From NCBI GenBank assembly GCA_900546885.1, contig UREN01000001.1, positions 1 through 64,000 of the forward strand: 64,000 nucleotides of DNA. The letters run 5' to 3'. The translations under genes and the position numbers were made by a program. The notes beneath the pieces are model-generated. The model did not search any database and was not told the DNA's origin. It saw only the letters and a list, made by a program, of their open reading frames with translations. Below, in pieces: positions 14,720-34,381 of this stretch. The DNA comes from an uncultured Oscillospiraceae bacterium (GTDB lineage: Bacteria > Bacillota > Clostridia > Oscillospirales > Ruminococcaceae). Position 1 is the stretch's first letter. Every line of letters begins with the position of its first letter.

Positions 14720-15697
14720 TTATCGGTTCTGCCCCAGTGCCGCTGCAATCTCTCCGGCCCGGGGCTCTGCGCGCCGGCGCATAAATTCCAGCACGGGCTG
14801 CGTGCCCACAGCGCCGCTGCGCGCCCCCAGCGATGTGATGGCCAGCGACGCCGCATAGGTGGCAAAGGTGCCGGCCAGGGCAGGGTCGCCGCACGTCTCC
14901 ATCATGCTGACAAAGCTGCTGCAATAGGTGTCGCCCGCGCCCGTTACGTCCACCACGTCCACCGGCACGCCCGGCACGTCGATGGTGCGGCCCGGGCAAT
15001 AGATGCGGCTGCCGTGCTCGGCCAGCGTCACCACCAGCATACCCACACCGCTTTGCAGAATATCTGCACTGGCCTGTTCGGGCGCACGGCCTGCGCACAG
15101 GCGCGCAAAGCCAATCTCGTTCATGAACAGAATATCGGTGCTGGCAAAATAGGGGCGCAGGTCTTCCTCGATATCGGCCACGTCAATGTCGCAGCACACC
15201 CGCGCGCCCGCGGCCTTCCACTGGGCCATCACCTGCGGCCCCGCCAGCGCGCCGCAGCGCAGGTGGCGCACCTCGCAGTAGTTGGAATAAACCACAGAGG
15301 CCCCGCAGATCATTTGCTGGGTATGGGGCGGTATTTCGATGGTGTTCAGCTCTGTGTCAATGATGAACACGGTGTGTTCGTGCTCTTCCTTCGACAAAAA
15401 AATCAGGCATTTGGAATCTTTCAGGTTGTCATCGTAGATGATATGCTCTGTGCCAATACCCGCTTCGCGCAGGCCTGCGCACAGCTTCTCTGTGATGGCG
15501 CCCCGGTTCAGCGCGCTGACGAATTCGGTTTTATGGCCGAACGATGCATAAACTGCCGCGGCATTGGCCACCATGCCGCCCATCTGTGCGGGCAGCATGC
15601 GCGTGCCCACCTTTTCTTTTACGGCAGGGAAGCGCTGCACTTCATAGTATTCGTCCAGTGCCACATCCCCCACAAATACCGTATAGCCCTGCTTCAT
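14720..15697 (-). CDS. PfkB-family carbohydrate/nucleoside kinase
   Basis: The 325-residue kinase has the ribokinase fold signatures: an N-terminal 'GDVALDEYY' substrate strand, the first PfkB signature-like segment 'GGMVANAAAVYASFG' near 45, and the catalytic aspartate in VTGAGDTYCSSF near 253. The start at 15697 has GAAGGAGG upstream. Its substrate is unknown. It is the first gene of a minus-strand operon with the AllA-like cupin and the GntR regulator, divergent from the ECF transporter. It may phosphorylate the compound that the transporter brings in. Confidence 0.88.
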   Translation of the reverse strand: MKQGYTVFVGDVALDEYYEVQRFPAVKEKVGTRMLPAQMGGMVANAAAVYASFGHKTEFVSALNRGAITEKLCAGLREAGIGTEHIIYDDNLKDSKCLIFLSKEEHEHTVFIIDTELNTIEIPPHTQQMICGASVVYSNYCEVRHLRCGALAGPQVMAQWKAAGARVCCDIDVADIEEDLRPYFASTDILFMNEIGFARLCAGRAPEQASADILQSGVGMLVVTLAEHGSRIYCPGRTIDVPGVPVDVVDVTGAGDTYCSSFVSMMETCGDPALAGTFATYAASLAITSLGARSGAVGTQPVLEFMRRRAEPRAGEIAAALGQNR

Positions 15698-15739
15698 CCA
15701 AATGCCCTCCTTCGGCAAAATTCTAGGGTTTCTGCACAT

Positions 15740-15768
15740 ATCATATCATGAGAAATATACACTTGCAA
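15740..15768 (-). promoter_or_regulatory. Promoter of the kinase-cupin-GntR operon
   Basis: On the minus strand TTGCAA (15768-15763) and TATGAT (15745-15740) are 17 bp apart. Confidence 0.65.
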
Positions 15769-15796
15769 CAAAATTAAACAAATTTTTATAATTTTA

Positions 15797-15825
15797 TTGA
15801 TTAAATGAACAACATATGTTAACAT
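15797..15825 (+). promoter_or_regulatory. Promoter of the ECF transporter operon
   Basis: TTGATT (15797-15802) and TAACAT (15820-15825) are 17 bp apart, about 70 bp upstream of the S-component start. Confidence 0.55.
15811..15820. promoter_or_regulatory. Candidate GntR operator between divergent promoters
   Basis: AACATATGTT is a perfect 10-bp palindrome within the spacer of the ECF promoter. A repressor there would block RNA polymerase. Assignment to the neighbouring GntR is inference. Confidence 0.4.
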
Positions 15826-15898
15826 GTCTACAATATGATGCCGTGCCGGACCGGCAGGCATCGCGCCAATGTTCACAATATAAAAAGGAGGACTCATC

Positions 15899-16531
15899 AT
15901 GTCACAAATGAAAGGTTCCAAAAACGTAAGCAAAATGGCGTTCTTTCTGCTGCCGCTGGGCATTGCGGTAAACTTCATCGGCGGGCAGGTGGCCACGCTG
16001 CTGAACCTGCCCATCTACCTGGACGCCATTGGCACCATGGTGGTGGCCGCCCTGTGCGGGCCCGTCTACAGCGTGGCCACGGCGCTCGTCACGGGGCTTC
16101 TGATGTCCATCACTCACCCCACAAACCTCGTTTACATTGGCAACTATTTGGCGGTGGGCCTGTTCTCCGGCCTGTTTGCCTACTGGGGCTTTTACAAAAA
16201 CGTGTGGAAATCGTGCATCGCGGGCGCTGTGGTAGGCCTGTTCTGCGGTGTTGCCGGCTCCACCGTCACCGTGGCGGTTATGGGCGGCTACAGCGCCAGC
16301 ATCCGCGGCATCATCACCGCCTTCCTTGCCCAGACTTTCTCGCTGTCCATCCCGGTGGCCAACATGCTTTCCGAAATTTCCACCGATATCCTGGACAAGA
16401 TCCCCTCTGCCATCATCACCTATCTGCTTGTGTTCCGCATTCCCAACAAGTTCCTTCTGAAACTGCCCTATGGCAACAAATACATCTGGGGCGCCAAGAA
16501 AGAAGAAGCGAAAACCGAGCAGGCGAAATAA
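15899..16531 (+). CDS. ECF transporter S component (substrate-binding membrane protein)
   Basis: The 210-residue protein has about six membrane helices and resembles ECF-type S components ('VNFIGGQVATLLNLPIYLDAIGTM' region near 20-45, cut here to its sense). In such systems the S protein binds the substrate and sits beside the T protein. Because the T and both A genes follow directly, this is a dedicated (group I) ECF transporter. The vitamin or sugar it carries cannot be read from sequence. The start has AAAAAGGAGG upstream. The tail is lysine- and glutamate-rich. Confidence 0.88.
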   Translation: MSQMKGSKNVSKMAFFLLPLGIAVNFIGGQVATLLNLPIYLDAIGTMVVAALCGPVYSVATALVTGLLMSITHPTNLVYIGNYLAVGLFSGLFAYWGFYKNVWKSCIAGAVVGLFCGVAGSTVTVAVMGGYSASIRGIITAFLAQTFSLSIPVANMLSEISTDILDKIPSAIITYLLVFRIPNKFLLKLPYGNKYIWGAKKEEAKTEQAK

Positions 16532-16611
16532 GAAAACCGTCAGCCTTATGGGGCCGGCCCTGCGCTTTCTTCGGCAGGCCGGCCCCATCGGGCGGCAACA
16601 GGGTGTGAACT

Positions 16612-17397
16612 ATGAATACTGAATTTATCGATTCCTTTCGCAGGCCCAAACTGCACGGCAATTTTATTATGGACCTGAACCCCTTTTCCAAGCTGAACCT
16701 GTGCGCGCTGATTGCCGCCTTTGCAGGGGTTATCGGTGGGGTAGCTTCCTCTGTGGTTGCCATTCTGCTTTACATCGCCATCACGGCCGCGGCCGGGTGC
16801 CTGAAAAAGTTTTGGGGCCTGTTTTGGAAAGTGGGCGCGCTTTTGTTCTTCTTTATTTTCATGATTCGCTCTGCCTTCTGGCCCGGCACCACGCTGCTGT
16901 TTGAGTGGTGGATTGTGCACTGGACCGTAGAGGGCATGGAGAACGGCCTGTGGTTTGCTTTGCTGGTAATTCAAATTTGCGGCGCAGTGATGCTGTTTTA
17001 CAACATCACCCCCATGAAAGATTTGATGTATGCCATCGAGATGCTGGGTGTTTCTCATTCGGCCTCGTTCGTGGTGCTTTCTGCCATGCAGACCATCACA
17101 GACCTTGGCAAAACAGCCAACGTCATTATGGATTCCCAAAGCGCGCGCGGCATTGAAACCACCGGCAACCTGAAAACGCGTTTCAAGGCCTTCATCCCGA
17201 TTTTGGGGCCGCTTGTGCTGGGGGCCATTGGTTCCACGGAAGAAAAGACCATTGCCATGGAGACGCGCGCCTTTTCTTCCCATAAGCATACCACGCATAT
17301 CTACGAGCTGCGCAAAACGCCGCTCTGGGAAAAAGCAGGGTGCATCCTGTTGGACATTGCCTTTGTGGCAGCCCTGGTGTGGAGGATCGCAGCATGA
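16612..17397 (+). CDS. ECF transporter T component
   Basis: The 261-residue protein has five or so membrane helices and the coupling-helix motifs that contact the ATPases: SARGIE near residue 182 and METRAFS near 220. It forms the scaffold between the S protein and the ATPase pair. It lies 80 bp after the S gene, and its stop overlaps the ATG of the first ATPase (ATGA). The Shine-Dalgarno site is weak (AGGGTG). Confidence 0.93.
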   Translation: MNTEFIDSFRRPKLHGNFIMDLNPFSKLNLCALIAAFAGVIGGVASSVVAILLYIAITAAAGCLKKFWGLFWKVGALLFFFIFMIRSAFWPGTTLLFEWWIVHWTVEGMENGLWFALLVIQICGAVMLFYNITPMKDLMYAIEMLGVSHSASFVVLSAMQTITDLGKTANVIMDSQSARGIETTGNLKTRFKAFIPILGPLVLGAIGSTEEKTIAMETRAFSSHKHTTHIYELRKTPLWEKAGCILLDIAFVAALVWRIAA

Positions 17398-18239
17398 ACA
17401 GCATCGTATTATCGAATATCACCTACCGTTACCCGCTTACCGATTTTGACGCCCTGCACAATGTCAACTTCTGCTTTGAAGAGGGGAAATTTTACGGCGT
17501 CATCGGGCCGAACGGCGCGGGCAAAACCACGCTTTGCAGCCTTGTGAAAGGGCTGATTCCCGGGTTTTTCCAGGGCGAGCTGACCGGCGAAGTGCAGATA
17601 TTGGGCAAGCGTATGGAAGATTGGGACGAAAGCGAGCTTACCTCGCGCGTAGGCTATATCTTCCAAAACCCCTTCACACAAATCAGCGGCGTAAAAGACA
17701 CCGTGTTTGAAGAAATCGCCATTGGCCTGGAAAACCTGCGCATGCCCAAGGAAGAGATTATTTCGCGCGTGGTAGACATTGTGCGCCTGATTGGCATTGA
17801 AGACCTGATTGAGCTGAACCCGAACGAGCTTTCCGGCGGGCAGCGCCAGCGCGTGGCCTTTGCCTCGATTCTGGCCATGAACTGCGATATTTACGTCATT
17901 GATGAACCCACGTCCCAGCTGGATCCGGATGGCACAGAAAAGGTGTTCCAAATTATTTCCGCGCTGAAAGAACAGAAAAAAACCGTCATTTTGGTAGAAC
18001 ACAAAATAGACCTGCTGGCGCAATATGCCGACGAGATTCTGGTGATAGAAAAGGGCTCTATTTTGAAAAGCGGGCCCACCGCCGAGGTGCTGGCAGACCT
18101 TTCCCTGCTGGAACACGAGGTGGCGCTGCCGCAAACCGTGCTGTTCGCGCGCGACATGGCGGCGGCGGGCAAGCCGCTGCGCGAGGCACCCATTACTTTA
18201 GAGCAGGCCCGAAGTCTTGTGCTGGAAAGGGGGCAGTGA
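17394..18239 (+). CDS. ECF transporter ATPase, intact subunit (A1)
   Basis: The 281-residue ABC ATPase has all motifs: Walker A GPNGAGKTT near 40, Q-loop IFQNPFTQ near 92, signature ELSGGQRQRV near 147, Walker B YVIDEPTSQLD near 168, and the switch histidine in ILVEHKID near 203. It starts in the ATGA overlap with the T gene. It probably pairs with the next gene product, which has lost its signature motif. The C-terminal 50 residues are an extension after the ABC core. Confidence 0.95.
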   Translation: MNSIVLSNITYRYPLTDFDALHNVNFCFEEGKFYGVIGPNGAGKTTLCSLVKGLIPGFFQGELTGEVQILGKRMEDWDESELTSRVGYIFQNPFTQISGVKDTVFEEIAIGLENLRMPKEEIISRVVDIVRLIGIEDLIELNPNELSGGQRQRVAFASILAMNCDIYVIDEPTSQLDPDGTEKVFQIISALKEQKKTVILVEHKIDLLAQYADEILVIEKGSILKSGPTAEVLADLSLLEHEVALPQTVLFARDMAAAGKPLREAPITLEQARSLVLERGQ

Positions 18240-18242
18240 ACA

Positions 18243-19037
18243 TTGGATTGCATCGAATTTAAAAACGCTTCGTTCCGTTACCCGAACGGCACGCTTGCCA
18301 ATGAAGAACTGAACCTGCGCATTGAGCAGGGCGAGCGCGTGGCCATTATTGGGCAAAACGGCGCGGGCAAAACCACGGCCGTCAAAATGATGAACGGCCT
18401 GCACAAGCCCACGCAGGGTGACGTAATTGTAAACGGCGTGAACACCAAAGAGCGCACCACGGCGCAAATTTCGCACATGGTGGGCTATGTGTTTCAAAAC
18501 CCGGATGACCAAATCTTCAACACCACCGTGCGCGCAGAGCTGGAGTTCTGGCCCAAATATCAAAAGCTGCCGCAGGAGGATATGGATGCGCGCGTGGCGC
18601 GCGCAGTGGAGATGACGGGCATTCGCCAGTATATGGACCTGAACCCGTACGAGATTCCTTATTCCACCAAAAAATTCGTGTCCATCGCGGCCATTCTTGC
18701 AGTGCAGACGCCTTATCTTGTGCTGGACGAGCCCACTGCCGGGCAGGATATCCATGGCGTAAACTGCCTGGTGCACATCATGGACACCCTTCGCAGCGAG
18801 GGCAAAGGCGTCATTGTCATCACGCATGACATGGAATTTGTCGCCCGCAATTTCGAGCGCGTAATTGTAATGGCGCACAGGCATATCATTGCCGACGGGC
18901 CTGTGCACGAAGTGTTTCAGAATGACGAAGTGCTGCGTGCGGCGGCCATTCAAAAGCCGCAAATTGGCCAGCTTGCGGCCAGCCTGGGCCACCCGGATAT
19001 TTTGTTTAGCGAAGACCTTGTGAAAGTGCTGCATTGA
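18243..19037 (+). CDS. ECF transporter ATPase with degenerate signature motif (A2)
   Basis: The 264-residue ABC ATPase starts at a TTG preceded by GAAAGGGGG, three bases after the first ATPase gene. Walker A (GQNGAGKTT), the Q-loop (VFQNPDDQ), Walker B (LVLDEPTAGQD) and the switch histidine (VITHDME) are intact. However, the ABC signature, LSGGQ in almost all family members, reads IPYSTKK near residue 140. In a dimer with A1, one of the two ATP sites would therefore lack its signature. It could still support transport through the other site, as in asymmetric ABC exporters. Confidence 0.93.
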   Translation: MDCIEFKNASFRYPNGTLANEELNLRIEQGERVAIIGQNGAGKTTAVKMMNGLHKPTQGDVIVNGVNTKERTTAQISHMVGYVFQNPDDQIFNTTVRAELEFWPKYQKLPQEDMDARVARAVEMTGIRQYMDLNPYEIPYSTKKFVSIAAILAVQTPYLVLDEPTAGQDIHGVNCLVHIMDTLRSEGKGVIVITHDMEFVARNFERVIVMAHRHIIADGPVHEVFQNDEVLRAAAIQKPQIGQLAASLGHPDILFSEDLVKVLH

Positions 19038-19070
19038 AAAAGACTTTGATAAGAAAGAAGCGTAGAGTTT

Positions 19071-19805
19071 ATGAAACAACCGGATTTTTTGTCGTTGTTC
19101 CCCAGAAAAAAGCCCATTCTTGCCATGCTGCACCTGCGCGGGGAAAGCCGCCAGGAGAAATATGAGCACGCCCTGTTAGAGGCCGGGCAGCTGATTGGCG
19201 GCGGCGCAGACGCTGTGATTGTGGAAAATTACTTTGGCGATTACGAGGATATGGAAACGGTGCTGGAGGCATTTTCCCGGGAAAAAGTAGACTTTATCTA
19301 TGGCGTAAACGCCCTGCACAACGACGCCCTGGGTTTTGAACTTGCCAAAAAGTACGGTGCAAGCTTCATTCAGCTGGATTCTGTTGCCGGGCATTTGACG
19401 CCGGAAGACGACGCTGTCTTTGGCGAATCCATTGCCAAATGGCGCGCAGGGTATGACGGCTTTGTCATTGGCGGTGTGCGCTTCAAATATCAGCCCTACC
19501 TCTCTGGCCGCACCCTGGAGGAAGATTTGCACATTGGCATGAGCCGCTGCGATGCCATTGCCGTCACCGGCGAGGGCACCGGCAAAAACACGCCCATGGA
19601 TAAGGTGCGGGAATTCCGACGCATTGTGGGCGATTTTCCCCTTGTGATTGCAGCCGGTATGACACCGGAAAGCTGTGCGGAGCATTTGGCCATAGGAGAT
19701 GCCGCCATTGTGGGCAGCTATTTCAAGAAAGAGTATCTGGACGACGGATATGTAGACCCGGCGCATGTGCGCACCTTTATGCAGGCGGTGGAGCGCTGCC
19801 GCTGA
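19071..19805 (+). CDS. BtpA/SgcQ-family TIM-barrel protein
   Basis: The 244-residue protein matches the BtpA/SgcQ family: 'PILAMLHLRGESR' near 16, 'GADAVIVENYFGD' near 45, 'DAIAVTGEGTGKNT' near 163 and 'VIAAGMTPE' near 193. Cyanobacterial BtpA was linked to photosystem I assembly. Elsewhere these proteins occur with sugar or nucleoside genes (for example sgcQ in E. coli) and their reaction is not settled. It is the last gene of the ECF operon, 33 bp after the second ATPase, so it probably acts on the imported compound or a phosphorylated form. Confidence 0.82.
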   Translation: MKQPDFLSLFPRKKPILAMLHLRGESRQEKYEHALLEAGQLIGGGADAVIVENYFGDYEDMETVLEAFSREKVDFIYGVNALHNDALGFELAKKYGASFIQLDSVAGHLTPEDDAVFGESIAKWRAGYDGFVIGGVRFKYQPYLSGRTLEEDLHIGMSRCDAIAVTGEGTGKNTPMDKVREFRRIVGDFPLVIAAGMTPESCAEHLAIGDAAIVGSYFKKEYLDDGYVDPAHVRTFMQAVERCR

Positions 19806-22821: not shown

Positions 22822-23433
22822 TTAGAAAGCCGCCATGTGGCCGGTAAACCCGTAAATGGCCAGCGCCAGAATGCCAATGTACAAAAGCGTGATGGGCAGC
22901 CCGCGGAACATGGCGGGGATTTTTTCACTCTCCAGCCGCTTTTCGCCGCCCATCACCACCACAACAGCCAGCACATAGCCAATGCCGCTGCCCAGCGCAA
23001 AGCCAAGCGTCTGTGCAAAATTAAAATTTTGCACAGAGCTGATGAGCAATGTGCCCAAAAGACAGGTGTTGAACGTGGCCATGGGCAGCACCGCCACCGC
23101 GCGGCGGGCGCCGTCCACCCGGAAGATAACCACAGAAAACAGCAGCACCACAAAAAAGGCCACAGCCGCACAGCCAAGGAACACCAGCGGGCGAATATAG
23201 TCGCGGTACGGCAGCTGCGAAATCCACCCGCTGGCAAAATAGCCCAGCGGCGCGCTGATAAGCTGCACCGCGCACAAAAGCGAGCCAAACATCACGGTAT
23301 CCACCGTGCCGTCATCCACCAGTTTCACCACGCGCGAAACACCCAGCGCGCGGGTAAACACGGCGTTTTGTGCAAACACAGCCACCACTGCATATACAAA
23401 GAACGAGGCCAGGGCCTGCAACACTTCTTCCAT
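22822..23433 (-). CDS. RnfA-like membrane subunit lacking the expected iron-sulphur ligands
   Basis: The 203-residue protein has six membrane helices and follows RnfA/NqrE in layout ('FAQNAVFTRALGVSR' near 20, 'ATFNTCLLGTLL' near 120, C-terminal 'PAMFRGLPITLLYIGILALA'). The canonical 'LGLCPFMGVS' loop, whose cysteine binds the intramembrane [2Fe-2S] cluster, is shortened to 'ALGVSR' with no cysteine. In the second site the usual 'TTNCAVLG' reads 'TFNTCLLG', so the cysteine is one residue off. It starts 3 bp before the rnfE-like stop-side end. Only the D, E and A type subunits are present here. Confidence 0.85.
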   Translation of the reverse strand: MEEVLQALASFFVYAVVAVFAQNAVFTRALGVSRVVKLVDDGTVDTVMFGSLLCAVQLISAPLGYFASGWISQLPYRDYIRPLVFLGCAAVAFFVVLLFSVVIFRVDGARRAVAVLPMATFNTCLLGTLLISSVQNFNFAQTLGFALGSGIGYVLAVVVVMGGEKRLESEKIPAMFRGLPITLLYIGILALAIYGFTGHMAAF

Positions 23434-23435
23434 GT

Positions 23436-24077
23436 TCAGCCCTCCTCTACCCCAAGCTGGTGTTTGGCCGCCGTGACAAAGCCGCGCCACAGCGCCACAA
23501 GAACCGCCAGGAAAATGAAGCCGCCGCTGGGCAGCGTGGCAATGGGCAGAATAGGCTGCTGAAACACCACCACGCCATACAGCGTGCCCGCGCCAATCAG
23601 CTCGCGCATCGCACCCACAATCAGCATCACCAGCACATAGCCAATGCTGGTAATGATGCCCTTGCGCAGGGCCGTGCCCACGCGCTCGCGCTGCGGGCGC
23701 TCGTACCGTTTCAAAATGATGGGGTCTGCCACCAAAAGCGGCAGGTACAGCCCCAGGGGTGCAATGTCGGTGGCGGGGAACAGCTGCCCCACACACCAGC
23801 GCACACCCACATAGATGAGCGCCGAGCTGAACGCATAGGTAAGCCCGCGAAAACGAAAATACGAAAACCGGCTCAGCATGGCTGCCAGAATGCGCGTGGG
23901 CGTAAGTAAAAGCAAAACGGCCACGCCCAGAATCACAGCGTTTTTCAGGCTGGTGGCCGCCACCACCAGGGGCGCCAGGCCAAGGCCCTGCATCACCACA
24001 GGGTTGTTCAGAAATACGCGGTCGCGCTTGATTTTTCTTCGCAGCTCTTCCGAGCGCCTGCGCTCTTCATTCGTCAT
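23436..24077 (-). CDS. RnfE-like membrane subunit lacking the expected iron-sulphur ligands
   Basis: The 213-residue protein is the RnfE/NqrD counterpart: a charged N-terminus, 'NNPVVMQGLGLAPLVVAATS' near 25-44, 'LYLPLLVADPIILKRYERP' near 115, and 'REL IGAGTLYG' near 165 with six membrane helices. The cysteine of the canonical 'LGLCPL' is alanine here, and 'VTNCIVVGRAE' is replaced by 'VADPIILKRYE', so both iron-sulphur ligands are absent. It overlaps the rnfD-like gene by 4 bp and is followed at once by the rnfA-like gene. Confidence 0.86.
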   Translation of the reverse strand: MTNEERRRSEELRRKIKRDRVFLNNPVVMQGLGLAPLVVAATSLKNAVILGVAVLLLLTPTRILAAMLSRFSYFRFRGLTYAFSSALIYVGVRWCVGQLFPATDIAPLGLYLPLLVADPIILKRYERPQRERVGTALRKGIITSIGYVLVMLIVGAMRELIGAGTLYGVVVFQQPILPIATLPSGGFIFLAVLVALWRGFVTAAKHQLGVEEG

Positions 24078-25063
24078 CGCGCCACGCCCCCTTTCCTGTG
24101 CTGCCGTGAGGTAAACAGCTTGTCCAGAAAGCCGGTCAGGGCGTTCACGCCCAAAACAGCGAAACACACGCTGTTGTCATATGTGCCGAAATAGCGGAAC
24201 ATCATGGCCATAAAGCCCATCAGCAGCCCGTAGGCAAAGTGCGCCTTTGCCACCCGCGGGCGTGTGACAGGCTCGTTTACCAAAAACACGCCTGCAAACA
24301 GCAGTGTGCCGGTAAGCAGCTCATATTTCACAGACTGGTAGCGCATATACAGCTCCTGCCACGGCCAGGCAAGGCCCACGTCGCCAATGCGCGGGAAGAA
24401 AAACGCCACGCACACAATGGAGAGGAAGAAACCCGCCGGAATGGACACCGTAATATCGCGCCGCACCCACAAATACAGCGCGCAGGCAATAATCACCAGC
24501 ACAGACGTTGTGCCAATGGCGCCCGCATAGTTGCCCAGCACCAAATCCAGCGCGCGAAGGTTGGGTGTGCCGCCCGCGCGCAGCGCCATGGCGGGCGATT
24601 CCACCAGCGTGGCATTCTGCGTGCTGGCAATGGTAAGCTGTGTGAAGGGCGCCGGGTAGCGGAACACCTGCTGCGGCCAGCTTACCGCAACCACCGCATA
24701 GCCCAGCGCAGAGGGATTGAAGGGGTATTCGCCCCAGCCGCCGAACGCCTCTTTGCCCAGCACCACGCCCACGGCCACAGCCACAATCACAATATAATAG
24801 CTTACCGACGCAGGCAGCATCATGGTGGTGACAAGCGCCATGGGAATGCTGGAATTTTCGGCAGAATCGTGCGTGCGGCCGCGCATCCACGCCGTGAGGT
24901 GGTCGCACACCACAGCCGTGGCCACGGCCACACAGCACATCACAGCGGGCCGCCCGCCGTACAAATAACAGGCCACCACCAAAAGCGGCAGCATCATAAA
25001 GATGATGTCACGGTTTGCCTCGCGCGCGGGCGGCGCACTGGGCAGGCTGTAAGTACCGTTCAT
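24074..25063 (-). CDS. RnfD-like membrane subunit lacking the flavinylation site
   Basis: The 329-residue protein has about ten membrane helices and RnfD/NqrB landmarks: 'EAFGGWGEYPFNPSALGYAV' near 105-125, 'GNYAGAIGTTSVLVI' near 190 and 'NEPVTRPRVAK' near 265. In RnfD an S-G-A-T motif carries FMN on its threonine. The aligned stretch here reads 'VESPAMAL' near 165, and no S-G-A-T occurs anywhere in the chain. It begins 18 bp after rpe, and its last 4 bp overlap the rnfE-like gene. Function is open: redox, transport or assembly. Confidence 0.86.
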   Translation of the reverse strand: MNGTYSLPSAPPAREANRDIIFMMLPLLVVACYLYGGRPAVMCCVAVATAVVCDHLTAWMRGRTHDSAENSSIPMALVTTMMLPASVSYYIVIVAVAVGVVLGKEAFGGWGEYPFNPSALGYAVVAVSWPQQVFRYPAPFTQLTIASTQNATLVESPAMALRAGGTPNLRALDLVLGNYAGAIGTTSVLVIIACALYLWVRRDITVSIPAGFFLSIVCVAFFFPRIGDVGLAWPWQELYMRYQSVKYELLTGTLLFAGVFLVNEPVTRPRVAKAHFAYGLLMGFMAMMFRYFGTYDNSVCFAVLGVNALTGFLDKLFTSRQHRKGGVAR

Positions 25064-25081: not shown

Positions 25082-25750
25082 TCAGATTTTTGCCGCTTCA
25101 CAGGCGGCGCGCAAAGCCTTCACCGCAGCGGCAGGGTCTGGCGCGCCAAACACGGCGCTGCCCGCCACCAGCGCGTTCGCGCCCGCGGCGGCGCACTGGG
25201 CGCCGGTGGCCTCCTGAATGCCGCCGTCCACTTCCAAAATCAGGCCCTGCTTGCCGCGCGCTTCGGCCGCGCTGTGCAAAAAGCGCAGCTTGTCCAGCGC
25301 CTGCGGCATAAACTTCTGGCCGCCAAAGCCAGGCTCTACACTCATCACCAGCACAAGGTCCAGCTCGTCCAAATACGGCAGCACCGCTTCGGGCGAAGTG
25401 GCCGGCTTGATGGAAAGCCCCGCCAGCACGCCCTGCGCGCGGATGGCGCGCAGCGTCTGGCGCACGTCGCTTTTTGCCTCCAGATGAAAGGTGATGGCGT
25501 TCGCCCCCGCCTTTGCAAACTGGGGAACATACTCCAGCGGGCGCTCAATCATCAAATGCACATCATAAAAAGCGTCCAGGTCTTTGGCAAGCCCCGCCAG
25601 CACAGGGATGCCCAACGAGATGTTCGGCACAAAAATGCCGTCCATCACGTCCACATGCAGCATGTCGGCCCCTGCCTGCACCACGCGCCGGCAGCTCTCG
25701 CCAAGCCTTGCAAAATCTGCCGACAAAATGGAAGGTGATATCCGTATCAT
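25082..25750 (-). CDS. rpe: Ribulose-phosphate 3-epimerase
   Basis: The 222-residue TIM-barrel enzyme interconverts ribulose-5-phosphate and xylulose-5-phosphate. Motifs are intact: SPSILSADFARLGE near 5, 'LHVDVMDGIFVPNIS' near 31 (metal-binding His and Asp), 'HLMIERP' near 65, 'SVEPGFGGQKFMP' near 136, and 'EVDGGI' near 172. It has its own promoter after the HtrA stop and is the first gene of the set with the Rnf-like trio. Most genomes place rpe elsewhere (near rsgA and prpC), so this linkage is unusual. Confidence 0.97.
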   Translation of the reverse strand: MIRISPSILSADFARLGESCRRVVQAGADMLHVDVMDGIFVPNISLGIPVLAGLAKDLDAFYDVHLMIERPLEYVPQFAKAGANAITFHLEAKSDVRQTLRAIRAQGVLAGLSIKPATSPEAVLPYLDELDLVLVMSVEPGFGGQKFMPQALDKLRFLHSAAEARGKQGLILEVDGGIQEATGAQCAAAGANALVAGSAVFGAPDPAAAVKALRAACEAAKI

Positions 25751-30669: not shown

Positions 30670-31356
30670 ATGGATATCATTGGCCTGATGGGCGCCATGG
30701 AGGATGAAATTGCCCCTCTGGCAGCCTGCATGGTGGCAAAAGAAAGCACCTCCCTTGGCGGCATCCGCTTTACCAGCGGCCTGCTGGGCGGCAAAAAGGT
30801 GGTGCTGTGCTGTGCCGGCATGGGCAAGGCACAGGCTGCGGCTGCTACACAGCTGCTGTGCACCCATTTTGGGGCCACGGCCATTGTGTTTTCCGGCATT
30901 GCCGGCAACATGACAGACAAAATTGGCGTGGGCGATGTGTGCCTGGGCGGTACGCTGGTTTACCACGACGGCGAGCCGCGCATGTTTGCCGAGACATACC
31001 CCCACCAGCAGGAATTTCACTCGGACGCGCGCCTGCTGGCCGCAGCCGCCTCAGCCTGCGAAGTGGCCGGGGTAAAACATATCGTAGGCAAAATTGCCAC
31101 CGGAGACCGGTTTGTGGGCGACAAGGCCACCAAAGAGGCCATTGCCGCAAAATGCGCGCCCGATTGCGTGGAGATGGAGGGGGCGGCCGTGGCGCACATT
31201 GCAGCAAAGAACAACGTGCCGTTCGTCATTCTGCGCGCCATGAGCGACAACGCAGATGAAAGCGCATATGAAACGCTGGTGGTAAAACAGTTTGATGTGG
31301 GCGAATATTGCCGCACCGCCGCCAAAATCAGCGCCGCCCTCATTGCGGCACTGTAA
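30670..31356 (+). CDS. mtnN: 5'-methylthioadenosine/S-adenosylhomocysteine nucleosidase
   Basis: The 228-residue enzyme hydrolyses MTA and SAH, and supplies S-ribosylhomocysteine for methionine recycling and autoinducer-2. Its signatures are GLMGAMEDEI at residue 5, 'VFSGIAGNM' near 75, 'TGDRFVG' near 148, 'CVEMEGAAVAH' near 170 and 'RAMSDNADE' near 195 (catalytic aspartate). The start follows AAAAGGAG. A terminator at 31368-31399 ends the transcript. No luxS was seen in this window. Confidence 0.96.
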   Translation: MDIIGLMGAMEDEIAPLAACMVAKESTSLGGIRFTSGLLGGKKVVLCCAGMGKAQAAAATQLLCTHFGATAIVFSGIAGNMTDKIGVGDVCLGGTLVYHDGEPRMFAETYPHQQEFHSDARLLAAAASACEVAGVKHIVGKIATGDRFVGDKATKEAIAAKCAPDCVEMEGAAVAHIAAKNNVPFVILRAMSDNADESAYETLVVKQFDVGEYCRTAAKISAALIAAL

Positions 31357-31367
31357 CCGCAAAAAAC

Positions 31368-31402
31368 AAACGGCACAGCCCCGCGGGGCTGTGCCGTTTT
31401 CC
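31368..31402. terminator. Bidirectional terminator after mtnN
   Basis: AAACGGCACAGCCCC (31368-31382) and GGGGCTGTGCCGTTT (31385-31399) form a perfect 15-bp stem with a 2-nt spacer, and T-runs on both strands. Confidence 0.88.
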
Positions 31403-31432
31403 ATTTTCAGGCGCAAAGGCCCGCCATGCCGG

Positions 31433-32161
31433 CTATGGAATGTCAAACGCGTAGCGGCTGGCGACAATGAAGTTATCTGACACGGTTACCGGCCTGCCGT
31501 TTTCCAGCGTAAGGCACGAGCGCATCTCAAACAGCGGCTCGCCCTCCGGCACGCCAAGCAGGCGGGCGTTTTCGGCGTCTGCCCGCACCATCTCCAAATG
31601 GCAGGTGCTTGTGCCCACGGGGCACAGGCCCTTGCGCTGCAAAAGCGGGTACAGAGGGGCGTTTAAATTTTCCTTTTGCAAAAACGCATACGGCTCGTAG
31701 GGGTATATGGCGTTCTCTACCATCACGGGTTCTGCGTCCGCCGTAAGCAGGCGCTGCGTCTGCAGCACCCGCGCCCCGGCAGCAAGGCCAAACTGCTGCT
31801 GTTCCTCCGGCGTGGCTCTGCGCGCCGCGCAGGCCAGCAGCCGGTGCGCCGCGCGCATACCGCACTTGTCACAGGCGTCCTGAAAACTCAACACGTTCAC
31901 AATTTTGCGGTGAAGCTTCGGCTTCGAGACAAACGTCCCCTTGCCCTGTTTGCGCACCAGGCAGCCCTGGCCGCACAGCTCGTCCACAGCCGTGCGCACC
32001 GTGCGGCGGCTTACCTGGTAGTGCTCCATCAGTTCCTGCTCGCTGGGCAGCCTGTCGCCTGCCTTCAGCTCGCCCGCTTCTATTTTCTGCTTGATGCCTT
32101 CCAAAATCTGCCTGTATAACGGAATGGTAGATTGCCGCAAACGGCCTGCGCTTTGTTCCAT
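31433..32161 (-). CDS. GntR-family regulator with UTRA domain (HutC group), second copy
   Basis: The 242-residue protein has an N-terminal winged helix (about 12-80, MEHYQVSRRTVRTAVDEL) and a UTRA domain (about 95-240, 'VLQTQRLLTADAEPVM'). It faces the NagB-like and kinase genes and probably represses them. The start at 32161 was chosen because earlier codons (in-frame at 32203) lie in the AT-rich upstream region and lack a good ribosome site. The ligand is probably a sugar phosphate, by family habit. Confidence 0.9.
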   Translation of the reverse strand: MEQSAGRLRQSTIPLYRQILEGIKQKIEAGELKAGDRLPSEQELMEHYQVSRRTVRTAVDELCGQGCLVRKQGKGTFVSKPKLHRKIVNVLSFQDACDKCGMRAAHRLLACAARRATPEEQQQFGLAAGARVLQTQRLLTADAEPVMVENAIYPYEPYAFLQKENLNAPLYPLLQRKGLCPVGTSTCHLEMVRADAENARLLGVPEGEPLFEMRSCLTLENGRPVTVSDNFIVASRYAFDIP

Positions 32162-32404
32162 GTTCTCGTCCCTTTTCCCAACAGGCGGCAATTCTGCACA
32201 CAAACAAGGCGGCCCTGCCGCCTTTGCCTGCTGGCCGCACTATTTTGGGGATATCATAGCATACCCTGTATTGCTTTTCAAGAAAGGCGCCTGGCATTGT
32301 CAGCTTTTTTCATCCGTTTTGAGTTGTCTCTCCGGTTCTATTGGTAAGAGCGCACAAAACGTGCCGCAGATATTTAGTAAAATGCCTATTTCATTGCACA
32401 TCGC

Positions 32405-32433
32405 TTGAAAAGAGGCATTTTGGCCTTTATACT
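32405..32433 (+). promoter_or_regulatory. Promoter of the NagB-like/kinase operon
   Basis: TTGAAA (32405-32410) and TATACT (32428-32433) are 17 bp apart, about 80 bp upstream of the first gene. Confidence 0.7.
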
Positions 32434-32451
32434 TATAACGTAACATAACGT
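32427..32451. promoter_or_regulatory. Candidate operator overlapping the -10 region
   Basis: TTATA-CT-TATAA (32427-32438) is a 12-bp dyad on the -10 box, and TAACGT is repeated directly at 32436-32441 and 32446-32451 near the start point. A repressor such as the divergent GntR could bind here. Confidence 0.4.
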
Positions 32452-32511
32452 CCCGTATCATTCCGGCCGAGCAGCCGCCGGGGCGTATGAAACGGAAAGG
32501 AACGATGTGGT

Positions 32512-33417
32512 ATGCAGGAATACCGTATTTCCCGGGAAGAGATGCTGCACTGGTGCAGCATCCCGAAAGAAGAGCTGGCGCACCACCCCGAGAGCAAAGT
32601 GCAGCATTTCATCATGAAAAAAGAGCGGCAGCAGGTCATGAATGTGGCCGCCGACATGATGTGTGAAGAACTTGTGCGCAACAATGCCGCGGGCAGGCCC
32701 ACCAAGTGGGTGCTGGGCAGCGGCCCGGCAGACCATTACCCCCGTTTCATCGAGCGCGTGAACCGCGAGCGCATCAGCCTGAAAAACTTATATGTGTTCC
32801 AAATGGACGAATGCCTGGACTGGGAAGGGCGCAAATACCCTTTGGGCGTGCACAAAATGAGCTGCGAAGGCCGTATGCGCGCACAGTTTTACGACCAGAT
32901 AGACCCCGAGCTGAATGTGCCGGAAAGCCAGCGCATCTGGCCCACACTGGAGGACCTGGACGGCCCGGACAGGCTGTGCGAGCAGATGGGCGGCATTGAC
33001 ACCGTGTGGGCCGGCGTGGGCTACAAGGGCCTGGTGGCCAACAACGAAACCCCGCTGGACCCTTATCAGCGCGTGACGCTGGAGCAATACGCCAACTCGC
33101 GCACGCGCGTGGTGTACTGCACACCGGATAATATCATCCAGTACAGCGAGCGGGATTTTGGGGGCTGCTACGACCTGTGCAACCCCATGATGCTCACCAT
33201 CGGCATGAAGGTGATGCTTTCGGCAAAGCGCGCCGTATATATGATTACCACCGGCTCGTGGAAAAAAACCGTGCTGCGCGTGGCCATGTTCAGCGAGCCC
33301 ACGCTGGAATATCCGGTGACGCTGTTCCCCAAATATGTGCCGGACATTACGCTTTTGTGCGATGAATTCACGGCAGACCATCCGCTGAGCCACCCGAACA
33401 ACCTTGTGTGCGAATGA
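32512..33417 (+). CDS. NagB-like sugar isomerase/deaminase family protein with altered active site
   Basis: The 301-residue protein follows glucosamine-6-phosphate deaminase (NagB/6PGL fold): 'KWVLGSGPADHY' near 67, 'VFQMDECLDWEGR' near 97 (like NMDEY) and 'VWAGVGYKGLVANNETP' near 165, the loop that in NagB reads GVGVDGHIAFNEP. Catalytic Asp and His of that loop are Lys and Leu here, so ordinary deamination is unlikely. It may be an isomerase for another sugar phosphate, or a binding protein. The start has AAAGGAA. It is followed after 13 bp by a PfkB kinase. Confidence 0.78.
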   Translation: MQEYRISREEMLHWCSIPKEELAHHPESKVQHFIMKKERQQVMNVAADMMCEELVRNNAAGRPTKWVLGSGPADHYPRFIERVNRERISLKNLYVFQMDECLDWEGRKYPLGVHKMSCEGRMRAQFYDQIDPELNVPESQRIWPTLEDLDGPDRLCEQMGGIDTVWAGVGYKGLVANNETPLDPYQRVTLEQYANSRTRVVYCTPDNIIQYSERDFGGCYDLCNPMMLTIGMKVMLSAKRAVYMITTGSWKKTVLRVAMFSEPTLEYPVTLFPKYVPDITLLCDEFTADHPLSHPNNLVCE

Positions 33418-33430
33418 AAGGAAGGCGCGT

Positions 33431-34381
33431 ATGAAGCCTGTGGATGTGCTGGTGCTGAACAACATTGGCGGCGGGTTTGACATTCTGGTAAAGCGCCTGC
33501 CGAACCCGCATGAAACCATTATGATGAAGCAGATGCGCCTGACAGAAGACCTTGCCAAGGGCGGCAACGTGGCCGTGGCCCTTGCGCGCCTGGGTGTTTC
33601 GTGCGCCATCATTGGCAAAATTGGGGACGACGAGGCCGGAAAGCGAGACCTTGGCTGGATGCAGGCCGCCGGGGTGGACACCGGCGAAGTGCTTGTAAGC
33701 CCGGACGTGGCCACCGGCCAGGGCATTGGCATCATTGCCGAAAACGGCGATAATATCCTCATCACGGGCGAGAGCTCCAGCGAAAAGCTCACCTGGGAAG
33801 AGGTGCAGGCCGCCATGCTGCGCCGCAGGGGCGCAGGGTATTTCATCACCGGCCTTGAAGTGCGCATGCCGCTGGTGCTGCGCGCCATCCAGCTGGCCAA
33901 ACAGCTGGGCATGCGGGTGATGTTCAACCCCAGCCCTGTGCCGGAGGGCGGCCTGCCCGCCCCGCTGCACGATGTGGACGACTTTTTCGTGAACGAGGTG
34001 GAAGCCCAGCTGCTTTTGGGCCTGCCCGCCGCCGAAATAGACAACACCTTTGACCCGCGCGGCGTGTGCGAGGCGCTGCGCGCGCGTTACCAGCCCGCCC
34101 GCGTGTTCCTCACGCTGGGCGCCAAAGGCAGCTATTGCCTGGACGGGCGGCAATTCTTTTTCACGCCGCCCGTGCCCGTCACTGCAGTGGACAGCTGCGG
34201 CGCAGGCGACGGTTACCTTGCCGCCGTGGCAGCAAACCTGGTGTGGGGCAAGCCGCTGCCGCAGGCTTGCCGCTGGGCTGCGGGCTATTCCGCCTATGCT
34301 GTTACGCAGCGCGAGTGCCTGCCCGGCTATGCCAGCCGGGCCACTGTGGAAGCATTTCTGGCCGCACATGGCGGCGCCTGA
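33431..34381 (+). CDS. PfkB-family carbohydrate kinase (second locus)
   Basis: The 316-residue kinase shows 'LTEDLAKGGNVAVALARLG' near 40 (PfkB signature 1), 'KIGDDEAGKRDLGWMQAAGV', and the catalytic aspartate in DSCGAGDGYLAAV near 255. The start at 33431 follows GAAAGGAAGG. It is the second gene of the NagB-like operon. Its substrate is unknown, and it differs from the kinase at 14720-15697. A strong terminator follows at 34503-34536. Confidence 0.88.
   Translation: MKPVDVLVLNNIGGGFDILVKRLPNPHETIMMKQMRLTEDLAKGGNVAVALARLGVSCAIIGKIGDDEAGKRDLGWMQAAGVDTGEVLVSPDVATGQGIGIIAENGDNILITGESSSEKLTWEEVQAAMLRRRGAGYFITGLEVRMPLVLRAIQLAKQLGMRVMFNPSPVPEGGLPAPLHDVDDFFVNEVEAQLLLGLPAAEIDNTFDPRGVCEALRARYQPARVFLTLGAKGSYCLDGRQFFFTPPVPVTAVDSCGAGDGYLAAVAANLVWGKPLPQACRWAAGYSAYAVTQRECLPGYASRATVEAFLAAHGGA

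Follow-up and report, generated by a model that had tools for sequence, protein, structure and literature searches.

In the Rnf complex (RnfABCDGE) of Acetobacterium woodii, as described in the passages of PMC11889175 on which we rely throughout, a [2Fe-2S] cluster is held by C25 and C113 of RnfA together with C25 and C108 of RnfE; RnfD carries flavin mononucleotide (FMN) on T156 and contacts riboflavin through N123 and D249; and Na+ is transported by the A/E pair, in which R67 and E115 of RnfE form an ion pair and RnfA contributes N112. This paper is about three adjacent genes, here called the trio, whose products D, E and A are homologous to RnfD, RnfE and RnfA, and in which none of the four cluster cysteines stands at its position. 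They lie in a stretch of 64,000 nucleotides from an uncultured Oscillospiraceae bacterium (assembly GCA_900546885.1, contig UREN01000001.1, positions 1 to 64,000), to which we refer as the window.

The trio has the folds of its Rnf counterparts and their relative order, D..E-A, and keeps part of the ion-pair and riboflavin positions. It differs from Rnf in having neither the [2Fe-2S] ligand set nor the FMN-threonine motif; RnfC is absent or degenerate, and searches with tblastn give no match to RnfG or RnfB at any trio locus read. The Na+-NQR (NqrABCDEF) has a homologous core, NqrB/D/E, whose solved chains match the trio. Its origin has been traced to a duplicated rnf whose function and partners changed (PMC4014512, in the portion cited), and the trio can be explained in the same way, as an rnf duplicate with a changed function. 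However, NQR retains a redox function, whereas the trio is devoid of the NqrD/NqrE cluster cysteines, and no NqrC/RnfG-type subunit is matched at the loci or in the window (no dedicated models were used to look for NqrA and NqrF). The two-subunit Nqr/Rnf-like flavinylation complexes, as the excerpts of PMC8238504 and PMC11334425 present them, also contain an RnfD-like membrane domain without the flavinylation threonine. In these, an NAD-binding domain is carried by the RnfD-like protein and the only other subunit is an extracytosolic FMN-bind protein; in contrast, D of the window has PF03116 as its sole Pfam domain and is accompanied by E and A, with no RnfG match.

A gene set with the content of the trio is mentioned in a figure legend: in PMC10781979, the rnfDEA genes of Faecalibacterium duncaniae A2-165 (CG447_09840-830), which stand beside a full rnfCDGEAB, are presented as a putative rnf operon that serves energy conservation, and the passage is silent on cofactor loss. 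Within the portions of the open-licence literature consulted, the term 'rnfDEA' is printed in that source only, and neither Rnf DEA trios free of cofactors nor E/A pairs lacking the cluster cysteines are described. The names given to these proteins, in sources that name them, are those of Rnf subunits. The trio proteins are Rnf relatives; the new part is the loss of the defining chemistry.

Cofactor positions of the trio

In the window, D, E and A are all intact homologues and form a tight operon with rpe:

25082..25750, minus strand: rpe, ribulose-phosphate 3-epimerase (TIGR01163, 259 bits), 18 base pairs upstream of D
24074..25063, minus strand: D, RnfD/NqrB-family membrane protein, 329 amino acids, without flavinylation motif (PF03116, 208.9 bits)
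23436..24077, minus strand: E, RnfE/NqrD-family membrane protein, 213 amino acids, both cluster cysteines replaced, LGMCP to LGLAP and VVNCI to VADPI (PF02508, 97.6 bits)
22822..23433, minus strand: A, RnfA/NqrE-family membrane protein, 203 amino acids, both cluster cysteines replaced (PF02508, 66.3 bits)

E and A sit inside longer open frames, in which we chose the ATG starts. All three Pfam scores are above the cut-offs and, with the alignment to solved chains, they bear out an earlier note on this DNA that had recognized the genes as RnfD, RnfE and RnfA homologues. The NCBIfam scores, however, are far under the Rnf cut-offs: 141 bits against 207 for rnfD, 68.5 against 213 for rnfE, and 63 against 229 for rnfA. 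The complete rnfCDGEAB found in one relative (locus L158, genome G007) has every gene above the cut-off of its subfamily. The same note had reported that RnfB, RnfC and RnfG are absent from the locus, and the search agrees: tblastn with canonical queries and a degenerate RnfC (E<=1e-4) yields no match to any of them in the whole 64 kilobases, hence no rnfBCG set near the operon.

The note had proposed a survey of relatives for similar substitutions. An alignment of E, searched against genome contigs, located 20 loci, among others in Ruthenibacterium, Pygmaiobacter, Subdoligranulum and Fournierella massiliensis. When 396 genomes belonging to the family of genome G019 were surveyed, 30 loci were added, 15 of which come from genomes already among the first 20. 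A further 60 loci were taken: the 43 E matches that ranked next, and 17 chosen from weaker ones, down to 92 bits. The 110 read loci that hold D, E and A reduce to 94 distinct trios, which are the relatives counted below.

The cluster positions were mapped both by alignment to the solved RnfE and RnfA chains and by profile-against-profile alignment, and the two agree. We label the positions E1, E2, A1 and A2, in the order of the following list:

23973..23975, minus strand: E Ala35, aligned with RnfE Cys25 (A. woodii numbering)
23721..23723, minus strand: E Pro119, aligned with RnfE Cys108
23335..23337, minus strand: A Ser33, aligned with RnfA Cys25
23065..23067, minus strand: A Thr123, aligned with RnfA Cys113; a cysteine comes next, at 124

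In E, both alignments reproduce the alanine and proline that the earlier note had read in LGLAPL and VADPII. In A, the first motif goes from LGICP to LGVSR without a gap: the cysteine is substituted, and not deleted as had been claimed. The second goes from TNCA to FNTC, with the cysteine displaced to +1; the note was right on this shift in the window, and 37 of the 94 relatives do have a cysteine at the canonical position. The counts of cysteine at E1, E2, A1 and A2 are 0, 0, 0 and 37 of 94, and they become 0, 1, 0 and 56 when two positions on either side of the site are allowed. Both cysteines are present in all canonical rows, 20 of 20 for E and 4 of 4 for A; some genomes are entered twice in these counts, and locus L126, whose A is missing at a contig end, is left out of them.

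We also considered an ion pair that would replace the cluster, since most relatives have an acidic residue at E118, beside the lost cysteine, and an arginine at A34. The contingency table, [[73,10],[2,9]], has a Fisher p of 3.8e-6. On the tree of the trios, A34 changes six times; the candidate is rejected as unproven because the E118 trait changes only once, with 0 concordant independent pairs.

For D, the positions that correspond to flavin sites are the following, the roles of the last two being those given in PMC11889175:

24587..24598, minus strand: D Ser156-Met159, the FMN-threonine region (the profile register points to Ser156, that of the earlier note to Met159)
24716..24718, minus strand: D Asn116, aligned with the riboflavin-contacting RnfD Asn123
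24272..24274, minus strand: D Glu264, aligned with the riboflavin-contacting RnfD Asp249

The earlier note had the S-G-A-T of RnfD reading S-P-A-M, which places a methionine on the FMN-threonine. The motif is indeed gone: the letters ATP are found in none of 111 trio D, and in 22 of 23 D on the canonical side. The register probably differs, since both hhalign and MAFFT align the threonine with Ser156 (ATPL against ESPA) and not with Met159; Ser156 is the more likely counterpart, in a register that stays uncertain. In that register, the 94 relatives have S in 47 cases, G in 33, T in 8, A in 5 and N in 1, and canonical rows have T in 22 of 22. A flavin on Ser156 of the window is unlikely, but only unlikely, because ApbE can modify serine, at lower yield (PMC12052999, in the passage cited). 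The two riboflavin-contact positions, on the other hand, are kept in the window as N116 and E264; of the 94 relatives, 89 have an acidic residue at position 264, and at position 116 there is N in 34 and H in 47. The statement that all visible cofactor sites are lost was thus too strong.

The one D on the canonical side without the ATP letters is a further RnfD/NqrB-family copy (locus L033, G010:C27), with STPL for ATPL in an open frame of 423 amino acids. It scores between the canonical and the trio proteins, and looks NqrB-like.

Judged by its sequence, the trio cannot run the known Rnf electron path, as the earlier note had stated, because it has no [2Fe-2S] ligand set, no flavinylation motif, and no B, C or G nearby.

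Conservation and origin

The order D-E-A is collinear in 78 of 80 loci according to our script, and the remaining two, L130 and L134, are collinear when read by eye: D, E and A adjoin, and the script misflagged them. In these two deep-branching trios, D has a long charged C-terminal extension (L130, 548-2488, plus strand; L134, 2880-4193, minus strand). Of the 76 loci that could be tested for it, 64 have rpe at most 400 base pairs upstream of D. A putative glycosyl hydrolase of family DUF4015 (PF13200) comes after A or E in 15 of 41 loci, though not in the window; this count comes from script gene calls in GC-rich loci, with some strands mis-assigned, and the other counts come from tblastn or profiles.

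For 11 close pairs, the 33 ratios of nonsynonymous to synonymous substitution rates (dN/dS) range from 0.035 to 0.41: the trio is under purifying selection. A profile of D separates the two types: trio copies score at least 333 bits (a truncated one, 231), and canonical D scores no more than 196 (the NqrB-like copy, 226). With this profile (E<=1e-75), trio-type D is detected in 232 of the 396 genomes of the family of G019, a score-based count in which at most 5-7 candidates were scored per genome and only some of the 232 were inspected at residue level. A sample of the phylum has it in 1 of 299 genomes, which is G019 itself, and a sample of the class in 7 of 291, G019 included. None of the six other matches in the class sample has a cysteine at E1, E2 or A1; two of the six, L179 and L180, have one two residues before E2. 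The family of G019 is thus the main home of the trio, though perhaps not the sole one. Since relatives conserve the losses, with low dN/dS and in so many genomes of the family, the trio is not a case of local decay, and the suggestion of the earlier note that it is a distinct system is supported, the system being also conserved.

A tree of D and E sets 36 trios apart, as one clade, from 11 canonical copies that these genomes also carry (support 100/100). The trios drawn nearest to the canonical side are those of G113, G075, G082 and G328 (supports 84-93), and they are the only genomes with an RnfC-like gene upstream of D. By locus, this gene is directly upstream of D in L123, L128, L130 and L134, and also in L150, L151 and L154; loci L045-L074 include only about 0.5 kilobases upstream of D, where an RnfC could be missed, and longer loci were tested. 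The degenerate RnfC keeps both four-cysteine [4Fe-4S] motifs in 4 of 4 copies. The canonical motifs GLGGAGFPT and NGAECEP, which we take to be the NADH/FMN site, are replaced in all three alignable copies, and the G075 protein scores 183.6 bits to NCBIfam rnfC against a cut-off of 246. The simplest history is that rnf was duplicated, that G and B were lost with the cofactors, and that C was lost afterwards.

What the trio may do

The positions associated with sodium in the A. woodii pair can also be aligned, with roles from PMC11889175:

23853..23855, minus strand: E Arg75, aligned with RnfE Arg67 (sodium-gating ion pair)
23700..23702, minus strand: E Glu126, aligned with RnfE Glu115 (sodium-gating ion pair)
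23068..23070, minus strand: A Asn122, aligned with RnfA Asn112 (sodium site)

R75 and E126 are invariant in a 46-sequence alignment of the closer relatives. Among the 94, position 126 of E is E in 71, position 75 is R or K in 59, and position 122 of A is N in 87.

The reading that we prefer, with a confidence that is about evenly balanced, is that the trio is a redox-free, Rnf-derived transporter, probably for cations. E and A would retain the inverted-pair architecture that carries Na+ by alternating access in Rnf. Their present load, moved without control by redox reactions, would be a cation, most likely Na+ and possibly H+, or else a solute coupled to a cation; D, with a fold related to ammonium and urea channels, may be a structural partner or the solute path. 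The fuller history attached to it is tentative, and we hold it at somewhat less than an even chance: a duplicated rnf in Oscillospiraceae would have shed RnfG and RnfB, then RnfC, the cluster and the covalent flavin, and the alternating-access A/E pair and D would have stayed on in the role of a channel or cation-coupled transporter, which outlived the pump in at least one lineage.

Several observations weigh against this reading. Transport is what we infer, and no substrate is assigned; the conserved neighbours, rpe and DUF4015, do not indicate one. R75 and E126 are missing from a sizeable minority of the relatives, and R75 is alignment-sensitive, with K in that column in 19 of 20 canonical rows. 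A third residue of the ion-pair network, E88 of RnfA, is hydrophobic in the trio. According to PMC11889175, RnfD solely carries electrons, which leaves D without an obvious job, and the conserved riboflavin-contact positions of D, above all the acid at 264, make a flavin role possible. Finally, the genomes without canonical Rnf described below are drafts whose completeness is unknown.

That flavin role is the core of one alternative, which we consider unlikely: a minimal redox system in which D binds riboflavin, perhaps with FMN on Ser156, and passes electrons with a further partner, and E and A are only a scaffold. The riboflavin-contact positions suit it, as do the Ser or Thr at D156 in 55 of 94 relatives, the less efficient modification of Ser by ApbE (PMC12052999), and the cysteine motifs of the degenerate RnfC in four deep branches; moreover, the part of PMC11334425 cited above proposes that two-subunit complexes without the RnfD threonine carry electrons. 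The absence of the ATP letters from all trio D, the Gly at D156 in 33 of 94, and the lack of an RnfG match at every trio locus speak against it, with the proviso that NAD-binding and FMN-bind partners were not searched with their own models. Similarly improbable, in our view, is a transporter of metabolites, for example a sugar phosphate, a polyol or an amine: D would be its channel, by analogy with the related ammonium/urea family, and E and A would be structural. Pseudogenes or a sequencing artefact can be practically dismissed: the open frames, the collinearity, the low dN/dS and the occurrence in 232 of 396 genomes refute them.

There is also the idea, already raised as an alternative by the earlier note, that the trio is a partner of canonical Rnf, its subunits swapping into the canonical complex or capping it, and thereby tuning it. 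The canonical Rnf that the note had in mind would lie elsewhere, and such copies are seen in the relatives: of 20 named ones, 19 have a second D that scores as canonical and all 20 have E/A that do so, on other contigs than the trio, and 25 of 30 further genomes have a canonical D. However, of nine genomes tested, six (G147, G182, G060, G371, G335 and G246) have E/A of trio type only. Five of them show trio D alone and G246 has one D match; in G182 and G246, the family model detected E only. On the tree of the trios, a single clade unites G182, G246, G371 and G335, and G147 and G060 are placed outside it, so that the pattern does not come from one bad assembly. The trio also has its own operon with rpe. 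An accessory role is thereby weakened, and we find it doubtful, a little more so than the other functional alternatives. Judging from the six draft genomes without detected canonical D/E/A, the trio seems able to do without canonical Rnf. One of them, G182, has elsewhere (locus L173, G182:C14) an RnfC_N open frame of 661 amino acids, with no D/E/A motif nearby.

Neighbouring genes, variants and consequences

Two other groups of genes in the window can be described. At 14720-19805 are a pfkB kinase, a small protein without Pfam match, a CbiQ-type protein, two ABC-type ATPases (by our reading of the open reading frames) and a BtpA-family protein, a cassette that looks like an ECF-type importer. 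At 30670-34381, side by side, are a Phosphorylase-superfamily protein, a GntR/UTRA regulator, a protein of 301 amino acids and a second pfkB kinase; the 301-residue protein has no Pfam hit, and by our reading may be a glucosamine-6-phosphate isomerase.

Variants of E and D were also seen among the relatives. In G231, G326, G393, G363, G284 and G163, E has a long N-terminal extension, mostly rich in Pro and Ala, that gives no functional clue; the loci are L138 (G231), L088 and L096-L100, and one clade has a short segment like TLIIPHITKEM/SQTLIIPQISPEM. Three D-E double-domain proteins, P0255, P0259 and P0263, are either true fusions or frameshifts, and are not used as evidence.

The trio offers a natural experiment on where Na+ moves in Rnf and NQR: the electron path is gone and the remainder is left, and the route of transport may be marked by those residues that have stayed conserved. 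A complex of three genes that needs no iron-sulphur assembly would also be far easier to express and study than Rnf. For the organisms, the consequence concerns annotation. The trio is probably annotated as Rnf by mistake, in many gut Clostridia in which it usually sits beside a normal Rnf. If it lacks redox cofactors, then reconstructions that count an rnfDEA as a second energy-conserving Rnf operon, as one physiology paper does (PMC10781979), would be wrong for a large share of an important gut family, in which 232 of 396 genomes have trio-type D.
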